This document shows, one piece after another, positions 2,342 through 10,789 of a stretch of 28,577 nucleotides of DNA (positions are counted from its first letter, which is position 1; each line of letters opens with the position of its first letter). The notes beneath the pieces were generated by a model. That model saw only the letters and a list, made by a program, of their open reading frames with translations. It searched no databases and was not told where the DNA came from. Source of the DNA: a virus; the IMG/VR virus record IMGVR_UViG_3300046028_000212, positions 1 to 28,577 of that record; one strand, written 5' to 3'. The translations under genes were made by a program, and so were the position numbers.

Positions 2342-4243
2342 ATGCTTTGGTTAGATTTCGAGACACGTAGTACGTGTGACCTACGCGCCAAGGGCGTGTA
2401 CAACTACGCGCAAGATGCAAGCACCGATGTGTTGTGTATGTCCTATGCGTTTGACGATGAGGACGTGGTGACGTGGACGCCTGCCGAGCCATTCCCCGAG
2501 CGCGTGCGCAACTACACCGGCCAGATCAGGGCGCACAACGCAGCGTTTGAGCGCTTGATTTTTTGGTACGTGTTGCAGATCGACTTTAAATTGGATCAAT
2601 TTTATTGCACTGCAACACAAGCCCGCGCTAATTGTGCGCCTGGCAGTCTGGAGGACGTTGGCCGCTTTGCTGGCGCGTCTATGAAGAAAGATCACAGAGG
2701 CGCGCAACTAATCCGCTTGATGTGCGTGCCACCATTCAAAGACTCGCCAGAACTCATGGCCGAGATGATTAAGTATTGTGAACAGGACGTGCGCGCCATG
2801 CGTGCAATCAGCAAGGGCATGCGTGACCTTAGCGATGAGGAACTGCTGGACTATCACGTCAACGAGCAGATCAACGACCGAGGCGTGCTGATTGACGTGC
2901 CGTTATGCCACGCCGCAGTCAAGTACGCCTCAGACGAGCTTGTTGAGATTGAGCAGATCGTGCAAGAAGTCACCGGCGGCGCTATTGCCAGCGTCAGGTC
3001 GCCCCGCATGCGTGAGTGGGTGCTTGAGCGTGTGGGCGATGAGGCCAAGAAGCTGATGGAAAAAGACGGCAAATATTCCATCGACAAAACTGTTAGAGCT
3101 AATCTTTTACTAATGGAGAACCCCGATGAAGTTCCAGCCGACGTCCAAGAAGTCATCCAATGCGCCGACGACCTATGGGCGTCGTCGGTTGCAAAATTTA
3201 GCCGCCTCGCGCAACTTGCAGACGTGGAGGATCAGAGAGTTCGAGGCGCGTTTGTGTTTGCTGGAGGCTCAGCTACAGGCCGTGCATCTAGCTATGGCGC
3301 CCAGGTTCACAACTTTACCCGCAGATGCGCCGAAGAACCCGACGATGTCCGTCACGCAATGGTGCGAGGCCATGCAATCGTGCCAAGGTATGGAAAGCGC
3401 GTTACCGATGTTCTTAAAGGAATGCTCAGACCTGCAATCGTCCCCGCCGAGGGCAAGCACCTTGTCGTCGCAGACTGGGCAGCTATCGAAGCCCGAGTTA
3501 ACCCTTGGCTCTCGGGCCGAGGTCAAAACAAATTGGATCTCTTTAAATCAGGCGAAGACGTTTACAAAGTTAACGCCGCCGCAACATTCAACATTCGCGT
3601 CGATGACGTCAGCAAGGATCAGCGCCAAATCGGAAAGGTACAGGAACTTGCGTGTGGGTTTGCTGGAGGCGTTGGTGCATTTGCTGCCATGGGCCGCGCT
3701 TACGGCATTAGTCTTCCAGAGCCTGTGGCCAAGCGAATGGTTGATGGCTGGCGCCGTGCTAATCCTTGGAGCGTACCTTACTGGTCGGCTTTAGAGGAAT
3801 CCTATACCCGCGCCATGCGCAACAAGGGGCGTGAGTTTAAGGCTGGCCGTATAACATATTTATACGATGGCCTGCACCTGTGGTATGCCCTACCGTCAGG
3901 GCGCATTTTGTGCTACCCCTATGCCAAACTGGAATCAGAGGGCGTCAGTTATGCCAAAGCGGCATGGAAGCCAGCGCAAGACGCAAAAGAATGGCCTAGA
4001 GCAAGGCTTTGGAAAGGCTTGGCATGTGAAAATGTAACGCAGGCAGTGGCCAACGATTTGCTTCGCCACGCCCTGCGCCAACTCGACGACGTTGTGCTGC
4101 ATGTGCATGATGAAATTGTGCTTGAAACCTCTGACCCTGATGCAGAACAAAATCTAAAACGTGTGATGTGTAACCCTCCAGCATGGGCAGATGGCTTACC
4201 CTTGAACGCTGAAGTTGAAACTATGAAAAGGTATGGCAAATGA
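2342..4243 (+). CDS. polA: family A DNA polymerase with 3'-5' exonuclease domain
   Basis: A 633-residue phage replicative DNA polymerase of the Pol I family. The N-terminal DnaQ-like proofreading domain shows exo I LDFETRS (Asp5, Glu7), exo II AHNAAFE and exo III YCEQDVRA. The polymerase part shows motif A VVADWAAIEARV (catalytic Asp378), motif B with Arg428, Lys432 and Leu436 followed by CGFAGGVGAF, and motif C HVHDEIVLE (Asp590). There is no 5'-3' exonuclease domain, as usual in phages. The residue matching E. coli Phe762 is Leu436. The start at 2342 has AAAGGAG at good spacing; the in-frame ATG at 2312 lies in the upstream stem-loop and adds ten unconserved residues. The stop overlaps the next ATG (ATGA). 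Confidence 0.93.
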   Translation: MLWLDFETRSTCDLRAKGVYNYAQDASTDVLCMSYAFDDEDVVTWTPAEPFPERVRNYTGQIRAHNAAFERLIFWYVLQIDFKLDQFYCTATQARANCAPGSLEDVGRFAGASMKKDHRGAQLIRLMCVPPFKDSPELMAEMIKYCEQDVRAMRAISKGMRDLSDEELLDYHVNEQINDRGVLIDVPLCHAAVKYASDELVEIEQIVQEVTGGAIASVRSPRMREWVLERVGDEAKKLMEKDGKYSIDKTVRANLLLMENPDEVPADVQEVIQCADDLWASSVAKFSRLAQLADVEDQRVRGAFVFAGGSATGRASSYGAQVHNFTRRCAEEPDDVRHAMVRGHAIVPRYGKRVTDVLKGMLRPAIVPAEGKHLVVADWAAIEARVNPWLSGRGQNKLDLFKSGEDVYKVNAAATFNIRVDDVSKDQRQIGKVQELACGFAGGVGAFAAMGRAYGISLPEPVAKRMVDGWRRANPWSVPYWSALEESYTRAMRNKGREFKAGRITYLYDGLHLWYALPSGRILCYPYAKLESEGVSYAKAAWKPAQDAKEWPRARLWKGLACENVTQAVANDLLRHALRQLDDVVLHVHDEIVLETSDPDAEQNLKRVMCNPPAWADGLPLNAEVETMKRYGK

Positions 4244-6540
4244 ACTTTCTTGAATTTTTAATTTCCTTGGCGCCCGAGGGTGAGACTGCGCTGATCGTGC
4301 GTCAAAAGCCCATCGGCAAAGAACTGCAATTCCATGCAGACGGCGCGATCAAATGTACTTGGCCGGCTATGTTGCCTACCGCACGCATCAAGTCCGATTG
4401 GGCAATCTACGGCAACACGGCCAGCTTTATCATCGACCGCTTTAAAGATGGCCACGTCAGCGCCAGCGCCGCCAACTGTGAGTATGTGCTTGTGATGGTG
4501 CTAGATGACGTGGGCACCAAGGCCGCCATCCCGCCACTTGAGCCGACGTGGAAGATTGAAACCTCAGAGGGTTCATTTCAATGGGGCTACGCCTTTTCGG
4601 AACAGCCCACAAAAGCCGATTTTTCAGCGGCCATCAAAGCAATTGCCGATGCCGGTTTTACTGACGCTGGCGCAATCAATGCCGTGCGTAACTTCCGCCT
4701 GCCTGGCTCGATCAACTTGAAGCCAGGTCGTGAGAGTTTTGCCGCCAAGCTGGTGGAGTTTCACCCATCGCGTGACTTTACGCTCGACCAAATTTGCACT
4801 GCCCTTGACGTGGTGCCTGCGCCTGCTGACTCAGTGGGCGTGCGCCCTATCCGTTTGTCAGACGATGGCGCAGATGATGTGATGGCGTGGCTCAGCGGCC
4901 AAGGTCTGCTATTGTCTAAACCCAATCAAGAGGGCTGGGCTGGCGTGATCTGCCCCAACTCAGCCGAGCATACGGACGGCAACCCTGAAGGCCGCTACAT
5001 GCCCGCCAACCGCGCCTACTGCTGCCTGCACAGCCACTGTGTTGAGTTTGGCTCGTCGCTGTTTTTGCAATGGGTGTCAGACAACGGCGGCCCCAAGCAT
5101 GCGCCCGGCCTACGTGAGGAACTTTTGGCCTCGGCTATGGATGTGGCCTTATCCAAACTGACGCCTAATGAGGCTTACCCTGACGCGGCTGCGGCCATCA
5201 TTGCCGAGGTCGAGCGTAAGGAACTAGGGCGCATTGAAAAAGATGGCTGGTGGGATCGTTTTGCGTACATCCAAGACGATGACGCTTACTTTGATATGCA
5301 AGATCGCCGTGAAATTGGGCGCGGGACATTTAACGCCTTGTTTCGTCACCTTAACTGCCGGTCAATCAACAACGTCAAACGCAAGATTGAAGCGTCTGTT
5401 TGTTTCGATGAAAACAGACAAGCCAAAGGTGCAAAAACCCTTGTGGGTGTAACTTACGCCCCCGGCGAGACGATTCTTTGCGCCCGTGAGGGTTTGGTTT
5501 ATGGCAATCGCTGGCGCGACGCCCGCCCATCCGTGGCTAAGAGTGTTGATCCTACGCCGTGGCTTGACCACGTTGAGCGCATGATTCCTGACGATATTGA
5601 GCGTGAGCATGTTTTGAACGTGATGGCCTTCAAAGTGCAAAACGCAAACGTCAAGGTCAATCACGCCGTGCTACATGGCGGTCACCCAGGCTCAGGCAAG
5701 GACACCATGTGGGCGCCGTTCTTTTGGGCAATCGGTGGCAACTCGCTTGCCAACGTCAAGAAGCTGGACAACAAAGACTTGTCAACCCCTTGGGGCTATC
5801 ACCTTGAGTGTGAGGTGCTCATCATCAACGAGCTGCGCCAGCCCGAGGCGTCAGACCGGCGCGCGCTTGAGAACAGTCTGAAGCCCGTGATCGCCGCCCC
5901 GCCTGAGTTTTTGTCTATTCAGCGCAAGGGTCTAGCACCTTATGAGGCGGTAAACCGTCTGCAAGTGGTGGCGTTCTCGAATGAGCGCATGGCGATCACT
6001 ATTCCCTCGAATGACCGCCGGTGGTTCGTTTTGTGGTCTAACGCCGTTTGCATGGATTCTGAGGCCGCCGCCCGCATGTGGGAGTGGTACAAGTCCGGCG
6101 GGTTTGCGGCGGTGGCGGCGTGGCTCGCGTCCCGTGACGTCTCCGCATTTAACGCCGGTGCTGCGCCTCCCATGACTGAGGCCAAGGCCATCATGGTTGA
6201 GACGGGCATGAGTGGTGCTGAGTCGTTCCTTGTCGAGATGATGCGCTCGCGTATCGGTGAGTTTGCCTCCGGCGTGCTCGGTGGCCCTTGGCAGTCGGTT
6301 TGCGACCGCCTGACTGGGCAAGCCCCTACGGGTATGAAATTGCCCGTTGCGGCCTTGTTGCATGCGTTCCGTGAGGCCGGATGGATTGACATGGGTCTGC
6401 TCAAGTCGCGGGCGAATACCACAAAGAAGCACATTTACTGCGCGCCTGACATGGTCAACCGTGGCAAGTCAGAATTGAGAGACGCGGTGCAGTCAATGCC
6501 TGAGTCTAAAATCGCGTCTTTGGTTCGCTTGGTCAAATAA
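4240..6540 (+). CDS. primase-helicase (RepB-like primase plus D5/VapE-type SF3-like helicase)
   Basis: A 766-residue two-part replication protein. The N-terminal region looks like a RepB/AEP-type primase: an acidic pair at Asp89-Asp90 ending a hydrophobic strand, and FRLPGSINLKPG at 152-163, a motif shared by plasmid and phage primases. Cysteines and histidines around 238-267 (CPNSAEH, YCCLHSHC) suggest a zinc-binding knuckle. The C-terminal ATPase has Walker A GGHPGSGKDT (Lys487), Walker B EVLIINE (Glu531), a SNERMAI sensor-like segment and NDRRWFVLW with Arg593-Arg594 as likely arginine finger, as in D5/VapE-like helicases. It would open DNA and lay primers for the polymerase just upstream, with which it is translationally coupled through ATGA. 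Confidence 0.85.
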   Translation: MNFLEFLISLAPEGETALIVRQKPIGKELQFHADGAIKCTWPAMLPTARIKSDWAIYGNTASFIIDRFKDGHVSASAANCEYVLVMVLDDVGTKAAIPPLEPTWKIETSEGSFQWGYAFSEQPTKADFSAAIKAIADAGFTDAGAINAVRNFRLPGSINLKPGRESFAAKLVEFHPSRDFTLDQICTALDVVPAPADSVGVRPIRLSDDGADDVMAWLSGQGLLLSKPNQEGWAGVICPNSAEHTDGNPEGRYMPANRAYCCLHSHCVEFGSSLFLQWVSDNGGPKHAPGLREELLASAMDVALSKLTPNEAYPDAAAAIIAEVERKELGRIEKDGWWDRFAYIQDDDAYFDMQDRREIGRGTFNALFRHLNCRSINNVKRKIEASVCFDENRQAKGAKTLVGVTYAPGETILCAREGLVYGNRWRDARPSVAKSVDPTPWLDHVERMIPDDIEREHVLNVMAFKVQNANVKVNHAVLHGGHPGSGKDTMWAPFFWAIGGNSLANVKKLDNKDLSTPWGYHLECEVLIINELRQPEASDRRALENSLKPVIAAPPEFLSIQRKGLAPYEAVNRLQVVAFSNERMAITIPSNDRRWFVLWSNAVCMDSEAAARMWEWYKSGGFAAVAAWLASRDVSAFNAGAAPPMTEAKAIMVETGMSGAESFLVEMMRSRIGEFASGVLGGPWQSVCDRLTGQAPTGMKLPVAALLHAFREAGWIDMGLLKSRANTTKKHIYCAPDMVNRGKSELRDAVQSMPESKIASLVRLVK

Positions 6541-7752: not shown

Positions 7753-7895
7753 TTATTTAGCCCTTGCAAATATTTGAGAATGGGAACCGCCTCATAGCGC
7801 GCGGTGTTGATCTTGGCAATGATTGAGGCTTGAAACGTCTCAAACAAGGCCGCGCCGGTTTGTTTGTCAATAATGACCCATGATGCGGTTTTCAT
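7749..7895 (-). CDS. hypothetical protein, 48 aa
   Basis: A complete 48-codon frame. The protein starts with a short beta hairpin-like part (SWVIIDKQTGAALFETFQ) and continues as a helix to LKYLQGLNK. The pattern of a strand, a turn with Lys-Gln-Thr-Gly and another strand recalls small phage proteins describing a parameter-like fold, without a known role. GGAGG lies upstream inside the end of the preceding gene, and the stop overlaps the next ATG. Confidence 0.6.
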   Translation of the reverse strand: MKTASWVIIDKQTGAALFETFQASIIAKINTARYEAVPILKYLQGLNK

Positions 7896-7898
7896 AAC

Positions 7899-8036
7899 TT
7901 ACGGCCTCCAGATTGAAAACGCGCCGTTATATTCGCGCCATGCGGTAACGGGTAACGCTAACGCGTGCCATGTGCCCGCGCATTGACGCAAAACGCAAAT
8001 TGTGCCTTTAGGGTGTCCCGCGTTGAAATAAGTCAT
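7899..8036 (-). CDS. hypothetical protein, 45 aa
   Basis: A complete 45-codon frame beginning MTYFNAGHPKGTICVLRQ and rich in Trp, Ala and Arg towards the end (WREYNGAFSIWRP). Two cysteines. The ATG overlaps the stop of the upstream gene (8033-8036) and a purine-rich GAGGGGG precedes it. It stops 3 nt before the next start. No family recognised. Confidence 0.55.
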   Translation of the reverse strand: MTYFNAGHPKGTICVLRQCAGTWHALALPVTAWREYNGAFSIWRP

Positions 8037-8221
8037 ACAGTCACCCCCTCGATCGCGGGCGAATCGGTACAGATGCACGCGACGCGTTGACCATTATCTA
8101 ATGCGCGCGCGATCAAATTGCGCCCAGTATGTGTGAAACTTTCCACGCGCATGGCGCGCCCTTGAACTTGGATAACTTGGCCAATTTTGTATTGAGCCTT
8201 AGGGATAAAAGCGAATCGCAT
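8033..8221 (-). CDS. hypothetical small beta-barrel-like protein, 62 aa, first gene of the leftward operon
   Basis: A 62-residue protein whose spacing of strands (YKIGQVIQVQGRAMRVESF, NLIARAL, GQRVACICT) suggests a small SH3/KOW-like barrel, often seen in phage proteins that bind nucleic acid or proteins. This is a fold guess, not a recognised family. AAAGGAA lies at good spacing before the ATG at 8221, and a sigma70-type promoter is about 55-80 nt upstream. It leads the eight-gene leftward operon. Confidence 0.65.
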   Translation of the reverse strand: MRFAFIPKAQYKIGQVIQVQGRAMRVESFTHTGRNLIARALDNGQRVACICTDSPAIEGVTV

Positions 8222-8249
8222 AATGTTCCTTTACTGTAGTTTAGGTTTT

Positions 8250-8269
8250 ACCGCGTTTTGTCGCGCGGT
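8250..8269. repeat. inverted repeat at the leftward transcription start
   Basis: ACCGCG (8250-8255) and CGCGGT (8264-8269) are perfect inverted repeats around 8 nt. They fall at about +1 to +20 of the leftward promoter, so they could be a repressor operator or a 5' hairpin on the mRNA. Confidence 0.5.
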
Positions 8270-8275
8270 GAATGT

Positions 8276-8303
8276 ATTGTAAGAGATTCTTTTACACTGT
8301 CAA
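8276..8303 (-). promoter_or_regulatory. sigma70-type promoter of the leftward small-gene operon
   Basis: Read on the minus strand: a perfect -35 TTGACA (8303-8298), a 16-nt spacer and TACAAT (8281-8276), one base off the -10 consensus. Predicted start near 8269, about 48 nt before the first ATG at 8221. It is the best promoter match in the window and points to use of the host RNA polymerase, so the operon is likely expressed early. Confidence 0.75.
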
Positions 8304-8382
8304 GCACTATTTAGCATGTATGCGCATTTTGCATAAAGTGTGTGTTAATGTGTATTTGCGTGGGTAGTGAAAACGTACCTCA

Positions 8383-8711
8383 ATGACTCACGCGGGAAGC
8401 CATGTGCAATAAGGCTTTTTGCTTGTTGTGTGTCAATGTGAGTTATGTTTTTCTAATAACTAAAAAAAATATATGTGTGTAAGTTTGTGTAAAGTACGCC
8501 GTTCTGGGCGCGCTTGAAAGTACCGCCCACGACTGCCCACATGACCCACAAACCGCGTGCACAAAGTTCGTGCCTTTTCCGCGTGAGTCATGGTGAGTCA
8601 TAAAAAGGGAATGACCCACAATGACTCACAAAGCATAACGGCGCGCAAAACCATGCAGCACAATGTTGCAGTGCAACATGACCGCACAAACCATGGCACA
8701 CAATGACCCAC
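8383..8711. repeat. iteron-like family of 9-bp repeats ATGACYCAC
   Basis: Seven exact copies: ATGACTCAC at 8383-8391 and 8621-8629; ATGACCCAC at 8541-8549, 8611-8619 and 8703-8711; and the reverse GTGAGTCAT at 8583-8591 and 8593-8601. The core cluster 8583-8629 has two reverse copies 10 bp apart facing two forward copies 10 bp apart, so each pair lies on one face of the helix. Imperfect copies occur near 8678 and 8720. The order suggests cooperative binding of a protein. Confidence 0.75.
8663..8679. promoter_or_regulatory. 17-bp perfect palindrome, operator-like
   Basis: ATGTTGCA and TGCAACAT flank a single G. The size and symmetry fit a binding site for a dimeric helix-turn-helix regulator. 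It lies between the 9-bp repeat cluster and the terminase genes. No regulator gene is visible in the window. Confidence 0.5.
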
Positions 8712-8859
8712 CGGCCAAAATGACCAGGAGGCCGAGGGGGAGGGGGTAGGGCCGGCGGCAAAGGGCCAGCAGAAACGTACGGATCGTGAACAATTTTTTT
8801 TAGCTACAAAATTTTTTTTCTTGTAGAATAAAAGCACTCGCAAACGCGCAGGAGAACAC

Positions 8860-9288
8860 ATGTTCCATTCGATTCCATTTACACCGCGCAAGGTCGAAGC
8901 GACAGAGTCGCGCTTGAAAGCGGTGTACGACGCCGCCAAACTTGGCCTTAAAGGCGACACCTTAGCGCTTGCCGCTGGCATGTTGCCCACCGAATACCGA
9001 CAACTTACGCAACTTGACCCCGTCGTTGAGATGGCTGCGCAAAAAGGCAAAGCCGACGGTGAGATAGAAATGGCCAACATCATGCGCAAGGCGGCGCTAG
9101 ATGGCGACGCCAAGATGGCGTTAGAAGTCTTAAAGCACCAGCACGGCTGGGTGGCCAAGCAAGCCATATCTGTCGAGGTAGATCAGCGCATATCCATCAC
9201 AGGCGCGCTGGCCGAGGCACAGAAGCGCGTATTAGACGTAACAGACGTAGAAGCCAAACACCATGCAATCGACCATATACAGCGCTGA
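8860..9288 (+). CDS. terminase small subunit
   Basis: A 142-residue protein directly before and overlapping (26 nt) the large terminase gene. The N-terminal half reads as a small helix-turn-helix (AVYDAAKLGLKGDTLALAAGMLPTEYRQL), followed by a helical oligomerisation region with the phrase GDAKMALEVLKHQHGWVAK, typical of small terminases. It would recognise the packaging site on the phage DNA and hand it to the large subunit; in related phages that site often lies within or just before this gene. AGGAG precedes the ATG at 8860. It starts the late rightward block. Confidence 0.82.
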   Translation: MFHSIPFTPRKVEATESRLKAVYDAAKLGLKGDTLALAAGMLPTEYRQLTQLDPVVEMAAQKGKADGEIEMANIMRKAALDGDAKMALEVLKHQHGWVAKQAISVEVDQRISITGALAEAQKRVLDVTDVEAKHHAIDHIQR

Positions 9289-10789
9289 AGACGAGCAAGA
9301 ACTAATGGCGCGTTTATGGGCGCCAGCCATCAAGGACAACCCGTTAGCGTTTGTAATGTTTGCGTTTCCTTGGGGTCAGCCTGGCACACCGCTGGAACAT
9401 TTCAAAGGCCCACGCAAATGGCAGCGTGAAGTCTTGCAACAAATTACAGACCACATCAAACAGAATCAAGGCAAGCTAGACTTTAATACCCTCAGACATG
9501 CCGTGTCATCTGGCCGTGGTATTGGTAAGTCAGCCTTAGTGTCATGGATCACAATCTGGATGCTGACCACGCGGATTGGCTCGACGACCATCATCTCGGC
9601 CAACAGTGAGTCTCAATTGCGAAGTGTCACTTGGGCCGAGATTACCAAATGGTTAGCAACTGCTATCAACAGCCATTGGTTTGAGGTGTCGGCCACCCGC
9701 GTGATGCCCGCCAAGTGGCTCACGGAATTAGTCGAGCGTGATCTCAAGAAAGGCACCAGATATTGGGGCGTCGAAGGGCGCTTGTGGTCAGCAGAGAACC
9801 CAGATGCGTACGCGGGCGTCCACAACTTTGACGGTGTGTTGGTGGTGTTTGACGAGGCCAGCGGTATTGACGACTCAATTTGGGCGGTGACGTCTGGCTT
9901 CTTTACAGAGAACACGCCCAACAGGTTTTGGATGGCGTTCTCTAACCCACGGCGCAACACGGGGTACTTTTACGAAGCGTTTAATTCCAAGCGGGAGTTT
10001 TGGGTAACCAAGGTGGTGGACGCCCGAACGGTTGAAGGCACGGACAAGCAGACGTATCAGCAGATCATTGACGAATACGGCCCTGACTCATCACAGGCGC
10101 ACGTCGAGGTGTACGGTCAATTTCCGTCTGAAGGCGACGATCAATTCATTTCGGTCAGTTTGGTAGACGACGCAATGAAGCGACCTAAGTATCAGGATCA
10201 GTCAGCACCCATAGTGATCGGCGTTGACCCCGCGCGGTTTGGTGCAGACGCAACAGTCATCGCTGTGCGGCAAGGTCGGGACATTATTAGCATCCAGCGC
10301 CATAGAGGCGACGACACCATGACGGTGGTTGGCCATGTGATCGAGGCTATCGAGCAGTATCGGCCTACGCTAGTGGTGATTGACGAAGGCGGCTTGGGTG
10401 CAGGTATTGTTGACCGTTTGAAAGAGCAAAGGTACAAAGTTAAAGGTGTCAACTTTGGCAATAAATCGACAAATCCGATCATGTATGGCAACAAAAGGGC
10501 CGAAATGTGGGGGAAAATGAAGGATTGGTTGAAAACTGCTTCGATCCCGCTTGACAGGTTTCTTAAAACTGATTTAATTTCGCCTATGATGAAACCCGAC
10601 TCTAAGGGTACGATATTTTTGGAGTCAAAAAAGGACATGAAATCGCGCGGGTTAGCCTCTCCAGACGCGGCTGACGCGATCTGCGTGACTTTTGCCTTTG
10701 CCGTAGCCCACCGCGAGGCGCGTGAATCCACGCAGCGCCGAGCGTACAGTGACAGAGGCGTGGTTGCAACTTCTTGGATGGGATCATGA
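9263..10789 (+). CDS. terminase large subunit
   Basis: A 508-residue packaging motor. The ATPase half has Walker A SGRGIGKSA (Lys89) and Walker B VLVVFDEAS (Asp197, Glu198). The RNase H-like nuclease half has GVDPARFGAD (Asp322), VVIDEGG (Asp374) and SPDAADA (Asp468, Asp471). It pumps DNA into the empty head through the portal and cuts it. The ATG at 9263 lies within the small-subunit gene with a poor ribosome binding site, so coupling is likely; an ATG at 9305 is an alternative. The stop overlaps the next ATG (10786-10789). Confidence 0.95.
   Translation: MQSTIYSAEDEQELMARLWAPAIKDNPLAFVMFAFPWGQPGTPLEHFKGPRKWQREVLQQITDHIKQNQGKLDFNTLRHAVSSGRGIGKSALVSWITIWMLTTRIGSTTIISANSESQLRSVTWAEITKWLATAINSHWFEVSATRVMPAKWLTELVERDLKKGTRYWGVEGRLWSAENPDAYAGVHNFDGVLVVFDEASGIDDSIWAVTSGFFTENTPNRFWMAFSNPRRNTGYFYEAFNSKREFWVTKVVDARTVEGTDKQTYQQIIDEYGPDSSQAHVEVYGQFPSEGDDQFISVSLVDDAMKRPKYQDQSAPIVIGVDPARFGADATVIAVRQGRDIISIQRHRGDDTMTVVGHVIEAIEQYRPTLVVIDEGGLGAGIVDRLKEQRYKVKGVNFGNKSTNPIMYGNKRAEMWGKMKDWLKTASIPLDRFLKTDLISPMMKPDSKGTIFLESKKDMKSRGLASPDAADAICVTFAFAVAHREARESTQRRAYSDRGVVATSWMGS

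Follow-up and report, generated by a model that had tools for sequence, protein, structure and literature searches.

Short repeats upstream of the small terminase gene as a probable iteron origin that follows the wing of a DUF5906 primase-helicase in an uncultured phage family

A cluster of 9-bp repeats with the sequence ATGACYCAC precedes the small terminase gene in a 28,577-bp IMG/VR virus record, analysed here over its whole length (the window). We estimate a probability of roughly 85% that these repeats are the initiator-binding iterons of the replication origin of the phage, bound by its own primase-helicase (encoded at 4240-6540, forward strand). In related phages the repeat has been replaced by other words at the same place. 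The word present follows the DUF5906 primase-helicase, not the terminase or the other genes tested, and single bases of the word covary with single residues in the predicted DNA-binding domain of this protein.

Repeat cluster and candidate unwinding element

The repeats lie in a 638-bp gap (8222-8859), bounded by a cluster of small leftward genes and by the next gene, that of the small terminase (TerS, gene terS; 8860-9288, forward strand), which is assigned by its position before the large terminase (TerL). Neighbouring genes include those for a DUF2800 exonuclease, PolA, the DUF5906 primase-helicase and the terminase. A first-pass annotation of this DNA had reported seven exact copies of the repeat in one non-coding region, and all seven are present inside the gap. 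Three of them flank the centre of the cluster on the forward strand: the outer copy ATGACTCAC at 8383-8391, ATGACCCAC at 8541-8549 and the outer, terS-proximal ATGACCCAC at 8703-8711. The other four form the core described in that annotation (8583-8629), with two copies of ATGACTCAC on the reverse strand (8583-8591 and 8593-8601) pointing away from ATGACCCAC (8611-8619) and ATGACTCAC (8621-8629) on the forward strand. A degenerate copy with one mismatch, ATAACTCAC, is located at 8438-8446 on the reverse strand, and an upstream reverse copy of this kind is common among the relatives.

The number of copies far exceeds chance. Dinucleotide shuffling of the gap yielded a mean of 0.006 copies and a maximum of one (5000 shuffles). 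Among all 9-mers with one wobble position in the gap, ATGACYCAC is the top word (n = 7), and the best such word in 1000 shuffles never exceeded five copies. When counted over the whole window, as had been proposed, the word occurs eight times against 0.41 expected, a number reached by no whole-window shuffle; the eighth copy, at 1564, is within a gene.

The degenerate copy sits at the edge of an AT-rich stretch (8441-8498), also reported in the annotation (as 8441-8483), with a GC content of 0.22 compared to 0.46 for the whole gap; it is a candidate DNA unwinding element. Short repeats clustered beside an AT-rich stretch, an arrangement looked for in replication origins, are found here. A change in cumulative GC skew at the repeat site, proposed as a further sign, was looked for and is absent, and a search of 7800-9300 against Rfam matched no known RNA element.

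Iteron alleles and layout in related phages

Eighty loci sharing a common gene order were found via the primase-helicase. At the same place they contain ATGACYCAC, ATGACCCAA or ATTGTCCAC, and the words are nearly mutually exclusive. Loci without ATGACYCAC clusters carry ATGACCCAA or TTGTCCACA there, the latter being the word of allele D; ATTGTCCAT is a further iteron, named beside those of the window (allele A), b and D, and the wider family contains about 20 iteron words. Counts of the words A, b and D in the gap are 199, 0 and 0 for A loci, 0, 190 and 5 for b loci and 23, 0 and 157 for D loci, and all three words are rare outside it. In the relatives with the window allele, ATGACYCAC is almost limited to the gap, with 199 copies inside (7.1/kb) and 15 outside (0.04/kb). 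Its clusters are mostly kept at a primase identity of around 75% or more and mostly absent at around 71%–74%; TerS is mostly 81%–91% and TerL 91%–98% identical both in loci that keep the clusters and in those that do not.

The layout is conserved. If one mismatch is allowed, a divergent core is present in 31/33, 20/21 and 19/21 loci of the three main alleles, compared to a convergent pair in five loci; the full four-site core (<<>>) is present in 18/33, 16/21 and 6/21. The AT-rich minimum is located around 440–470 bp before terS in all three. Of the arrangement originally described, the relatives preserve the orientation of the sites but not the 10-bp spacing, which is specific to the window allele; the other two main alleles keep the same layout at a pitch of 9 bp. 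The argument from helix phase is weak for this reason, and helix phase was rejected as the organising rule.

The gap of one locus, L076, is chimeric: its D-type words are the closer to terS, and its b-type iterons lie upstream of them; it is probably a swap intermediate. D-allele loci often retain one ATGACCCAC around 150–260 bp before terS, joined to the last TTGTCCACA; it may be a relic or have a second function.

Wider searches, based on TerL and on distant primases, showed that many lineages have iteron clusters within 1 kb upstream of terS, and that the words differ. TerL relatives in which no primase homologue or TerS was detected (L130 and L146, for example) have no such iteron cluster.

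Association of the iteron allele with the primase-helicase

Trees were built for 78 loci (65 for TerL); on them, the distribution of alleles requires six changes for the primase, 29 for TerS and 28 for TerL, where shuffled labels give about 37, 36 and 32, respectively. The allele of the nearest neighbour predicts that of the query perfectly (1.00) for primase residues 331-766; the same prediction is near chance for PolA, DUF2815, TerS, TerL and portal (0.32 for TerS and 0.39 for TerL, against 0.34 by chance). In a stricter test, with neighbours of more than 90% primase identity removed, residues 698-753 scored 0.92, residues 641-766 0.87, residues 331-640 0.85 and residues 1-330 only 0.26, while PolA, TerS and TerL scored 0.06, 0.08 and 0.16. 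Scanning along the primase with close relatives removed, prediction peaks at 0.95–0.97 around residues 698-753. Four loci that reached the D word independently (L073, L080, L081 and L083) are A-like over most of the primase and D-like mainly at residues 653-752.

Primase-helicase and its C-terminal domain

The primase-helicase has 766 residues and contains a DUF5906 helicase domain (PF19263, 37.1 bits against a cut-off of 27.6) at residues 479-594; its PHROG annotation is DNA primase. An AlphaFold2 model based on 99 sequences has a mean pLDDT of 82 for the full protein. The best Foldseek match of this model is the C-terminal region of NrS-1 (6k9c, E 2.9e-12), followed by MPXV E5, ASFV PrimPol and D5, with modest TM-scores because the model leaves the packing of the domains uncertain (pTM 0.42). 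As judged by fold matching, the N-terminal domain resembles the archaeo-eukaryotic primase (AEP) fold (AEP domain of 6zp9, E 2.6e-6, TMt 0.63). Among 50,697 phage records, there is one full-length relative.

Residues 659-750 (6214-6489, forward strand) are predicted to form a winged-helix domain with a pLDDT of about 90, consisting of a helix (659-669), a strand (679-681), two further helices (684-692 and 703-712) and two wing strands (716-721 and 730-734). The same topology was obtained when the domain was modelled alone, with a block pLDDT of 89 or more in the folded part. Residues 698-753, the strongest predictor of the allele, correspond in this model to the recognition helix and the wing. 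The wing, Gly719-His731 (GLLKSRANTTKKH; 6394-6432, forward strand), contains Lys722, Arg724 and position 727, which residue-base associations point to as specificity residues. The domains of L231/L242 are near-identical to those of L206/L211, the main difference being in the wing, and each pair of loci has the iteron that corresponds to its wing.

For the isolated C-terminal domain, none of the Foldseek matches was significant; the best E-value was 0.037, and many winged helices were listed, RFX5 among them. Searches of Pfam and of PDB sequences with the domain returned nothing useful. The Pox_D5 Pfam domain, present at the C-terminus of many, though not all, DUF5906 or D5-like members, did not match any of 67 C-terminal domains at E-values up to 0.1. 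For the C-terminal domain of vaccinia D5, RFX1 was the best, not necessarily significant, hit (PMC9611036).

Covariation between wing residues and iteron bases

An unguided de novo search for motifs settled on unrelated repeats in some relatives (AAGTTAGTG and tandem G+C-rich arrays); alleles were therefore called with the template AT..YC.A., in which positions 1, 2, 6 and 8 are fixed, position 5 is C or T and positions 3, 4, 7 and 9 are free. As positions 7 and 9 are free, the associations of residue 724 with base 9 and of residue 722 with base 7 are not built into the template. Alleles were called in 260 of the 354 gaps with sequence, the remainder, including the L165-L167 group, falling outside the code. 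The rule was read from 114 loci by aligning the word to the wing; predictions were written down before new loci were fetched, giving a held-out set of 85 contigs (69 distinct), all relatives of the discovery set.

In 112/112 discovery loci and 85/85 held-out loci, C9 accompanies Arg or Lys at position 724 and a different base accompanies any other residue, the held-out loci being made up of 50/50 with Arg or Lys and C9 and 35/35 with another residue and another base. The equivalence of Lys724 to Arg724 was seen in the data and was not among the predictions. Val, Ile or Thr at 724 was accompanied by G9 in 17 of 21 held-out loci, and G9 without one of these residues was found once. Asp727 was accompanied by T5 in 23 of 28 held-out loci; it fails for T5 in one of 33 discovery loci and in the other five held-out ones, and T5 never occurs without Asp727 in either set. 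The written prediction on this residue had numbered it 728, through an indexing slip put right after the new loci were fetched. Lys or His at 722 was found with C7 (31/31) and Gly722 with T7 (22/22) in held-out loci; from the discovery set only part of these rules had been noted (Lys to C7), the pairing of Gly722 with T7 being added afterwards. Mutual information ranks Arg724 first for base 9, position 727 for base 5 and position 722 for base 7.

Because held-out and discovery loci are related, the weight lies on phylogenetically independent contrasts and not on raw counts. With residues from 690 onwards left out of the tree, residue 724 and base 9 change 11 times each, and all eight supported contrasts agree (p = 0.008). 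For residue 727 and base 5, about 11 of 13 contrasts agree and none is opposite (p about 0.001). The contrast between Val, Ile or Thr at 724 and G9 is based on about three independent pairs and does not reach significance on the phylogeny. The repeat thus coevolves with the predicted DNA-binding domain of its proposed initiator, as looked for in an origin.

We lean towards the view that this large freshwater phage family diversifies its replication specificity via a readable wing-to-base code, giving about 20 origin alleles, many of them likely to be mutually incompatible, which are repeatedly swapped as modules. In such a code, residue 724 would set base 9 (C for Arg or Lys; mostly G for Val, Ile or Thr; A or T for Gly, Ser, Phe or Ala), residue 727 would influence base 5 and residue 722 base 7. 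Module swapping is perhaps driven by co-infecting phages, satellites or origin-targeting nucleases.

Genes in the interval and other possible binders

The gap separates divergent transcription units, and a promoter-like site of the leftward genes (TTGACA-16-TACAAT, 11/12 matches) is present at 8303-8276 on the reverse strand. The sites could be an operator array for a phage regulator, possibly the primase-helicase itself, controlling the divergent leftward and terminase promoters without being an origin. We regard this as improbable, since no regulator gene in the interval is common to all loci, the most widespread interval gene (69/75 loci) predicts the allele poorly (0.44 with close relatives removed, against 0.35 by chance), and the covariation indicates as the binder the helicase-primase, a kind of protein that usually binds origins. 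An operator function or autoregulation is possible as a secondary, additional function of the origin.

About 2 kb separates the primase gene from the gap, and since they can pass on together, a degree of association would be expected from linkage alone; the two might be inherited as one block, with another co-transferred gene encoding the true binder. Two gene families are indeed confined to allele b and occur in all 21 b loci. Another, present in 32/75 loci and almost only with allele A, reaches a prediction of 0.82, a value to be read against the high chance level caused by the class mix. However, no interval gene is universal, the wing residue-base contrasts recur independently, and domains that differ mainly in the wing come with different alleles; linkage is thus unlikely to be the full cause, and such hitch-hiking is very unlikely to explain the pattern.

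A packaging (pac or cos) site read by the small terminase, also suggested in the first-pass annotation, was rejected and has next to no probability left: the repeats are directly upstream of terS in all loci, but their sequence does not track TerS or TerL, identical or near-identical copies of which are mixed freely among the alleles, and a separate block at 8734-8801 stays constant when the allele changes.

The reading as a replication origin, raised in the same annotation, is instead strongly supported by the tracking of the primase-helicase, the residue-base covariation and the contrasts.

Proposed mechanism and comparison with known systems

The primase-helicase may bind each 9–10 bp iteron through its C-terminal winged helix, the wing reading the variable bases; an Arg or Lys opposite C9 would fit a contact to the paired guanine. 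The two tandem sites on each side of the divergent core might load two outward-facing helicase rings, and melting of the AT-rich stretch could help loading and unwinding. On firing of the origin, the same protein would unwind and prime, and the phage PolA would copy. The best reading is that of a self-loading SF3 primase-helicase origin, like that of P4 alpha or SaPI Rep, with a specificity code that appears to evolve fast and to be readable in part.

P4 alpha, SaPI Rep and Cch2 are analogues for this mechanism (PMC4234260, PMC7581432). P4 alpha, which also acts with ori iterons, is set apart by its description as a Toprim-type primase (PMC4234260), whereas the N-terminal fold is AEP-like here. 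SaPI Rep and SCCmec Cch2 are likewise self-loading helicases of the D5/Primase_Cterm or a related type, with a C-terminal domain that binds iterons, but their origins are directly downstream of the helicase gene, while here the gap is around 2 kb off, across the leftward gene cluster, and the window protein has a fused primase. The pRN1 ORF904/phage BIP-1 type has an AEP primase, an SF3 helicase and a C-terminal winged helix, to which the AEP-like fold, the helicase domain and the predicted winged helix of the window protein correspond; assembly of that type has been suggested to occur at a stem-loop (PMC4234260), whereas the window family points to iterons. In PLE, the DNA-binding domain of RepA_N and the origin also covary and are swapped as a module, with only cognate pairs replicating, but the iterons are semi-palindromic, about 30 bp long and of two types (PMC8263062); the window family has short 9–10 bp iterons, about 20 alleles and single-residue covariation.

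Prior examples thus exist for iteron origins, for origin-binding domains at the C-terminus and for modules in which initiator and origin covary, from P4, SaPI, PLE RepA_N and geminivirus Rep. The last serves replication in plant viruses with small single-stranded DNA genomes, and we know of no relation between it and the window primase-helicase. What this analysis adds is the phage family, the range of alleles found at a single conserved putative origin and the residue-to-base pattern; a search of open-licence papers found no description of such a system. For this uncultured phage family, the results point to a putative origin and its initiator, and they suggest that phage primase-helicases of the DUF5906 type can use iterons. 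They also yield about 20 naturally matched pairs of protein and DNA specificity, in which the choice of a single base seems to lie with a single residue. With these natural proteins, the evolution of origin specificity, and of incompatibility between phage origins, can be tested directly.

Other elements in the gap and its relatives

Several relatives contain further repeats. The gap of the most distant group (L165-L167) has 13–19 copies of a ATGTAAAC-type word, outside the family template. An inverted-repeat family, AAGTTAGTG/CACTAACTT, is found in the gap before terS of L129, L131, L133, L158, L163 and their relatives, as evenly spaced pairs between the iterons and terS. Short tandem arrays (GCCGTAGC, CGGTCGGC, CCCTGCCCTG) occur in L196 (around 11268), L216 (around 11884), L223 (around 4528) and L182 (around 11415). 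L455, a distant relative of the primase-helicase, is in a contig of a Rhodoferax MAG, a weak host hint that may be a binning effect.

The constant block before terS (8734-8801, forward strand) was delimited by alignment; it consists of a G-rich part (GAGGGGGAGGGGGTAGGGCCGG...) and AACGTACGG...GAACAATTTTTTTT. It is retained in all three main iteron alleles, and its core is present in 229/354 gaps. It does not belong to the iteron system and is a candidate packaging or regulatory element. The G-rich block is G-quadruplex-like. The spacer of the promoter-like site at 8276-8303 holds a dyad, TGTAAGAGATTCTTTTACA, and the same element is found in L044 and L070.
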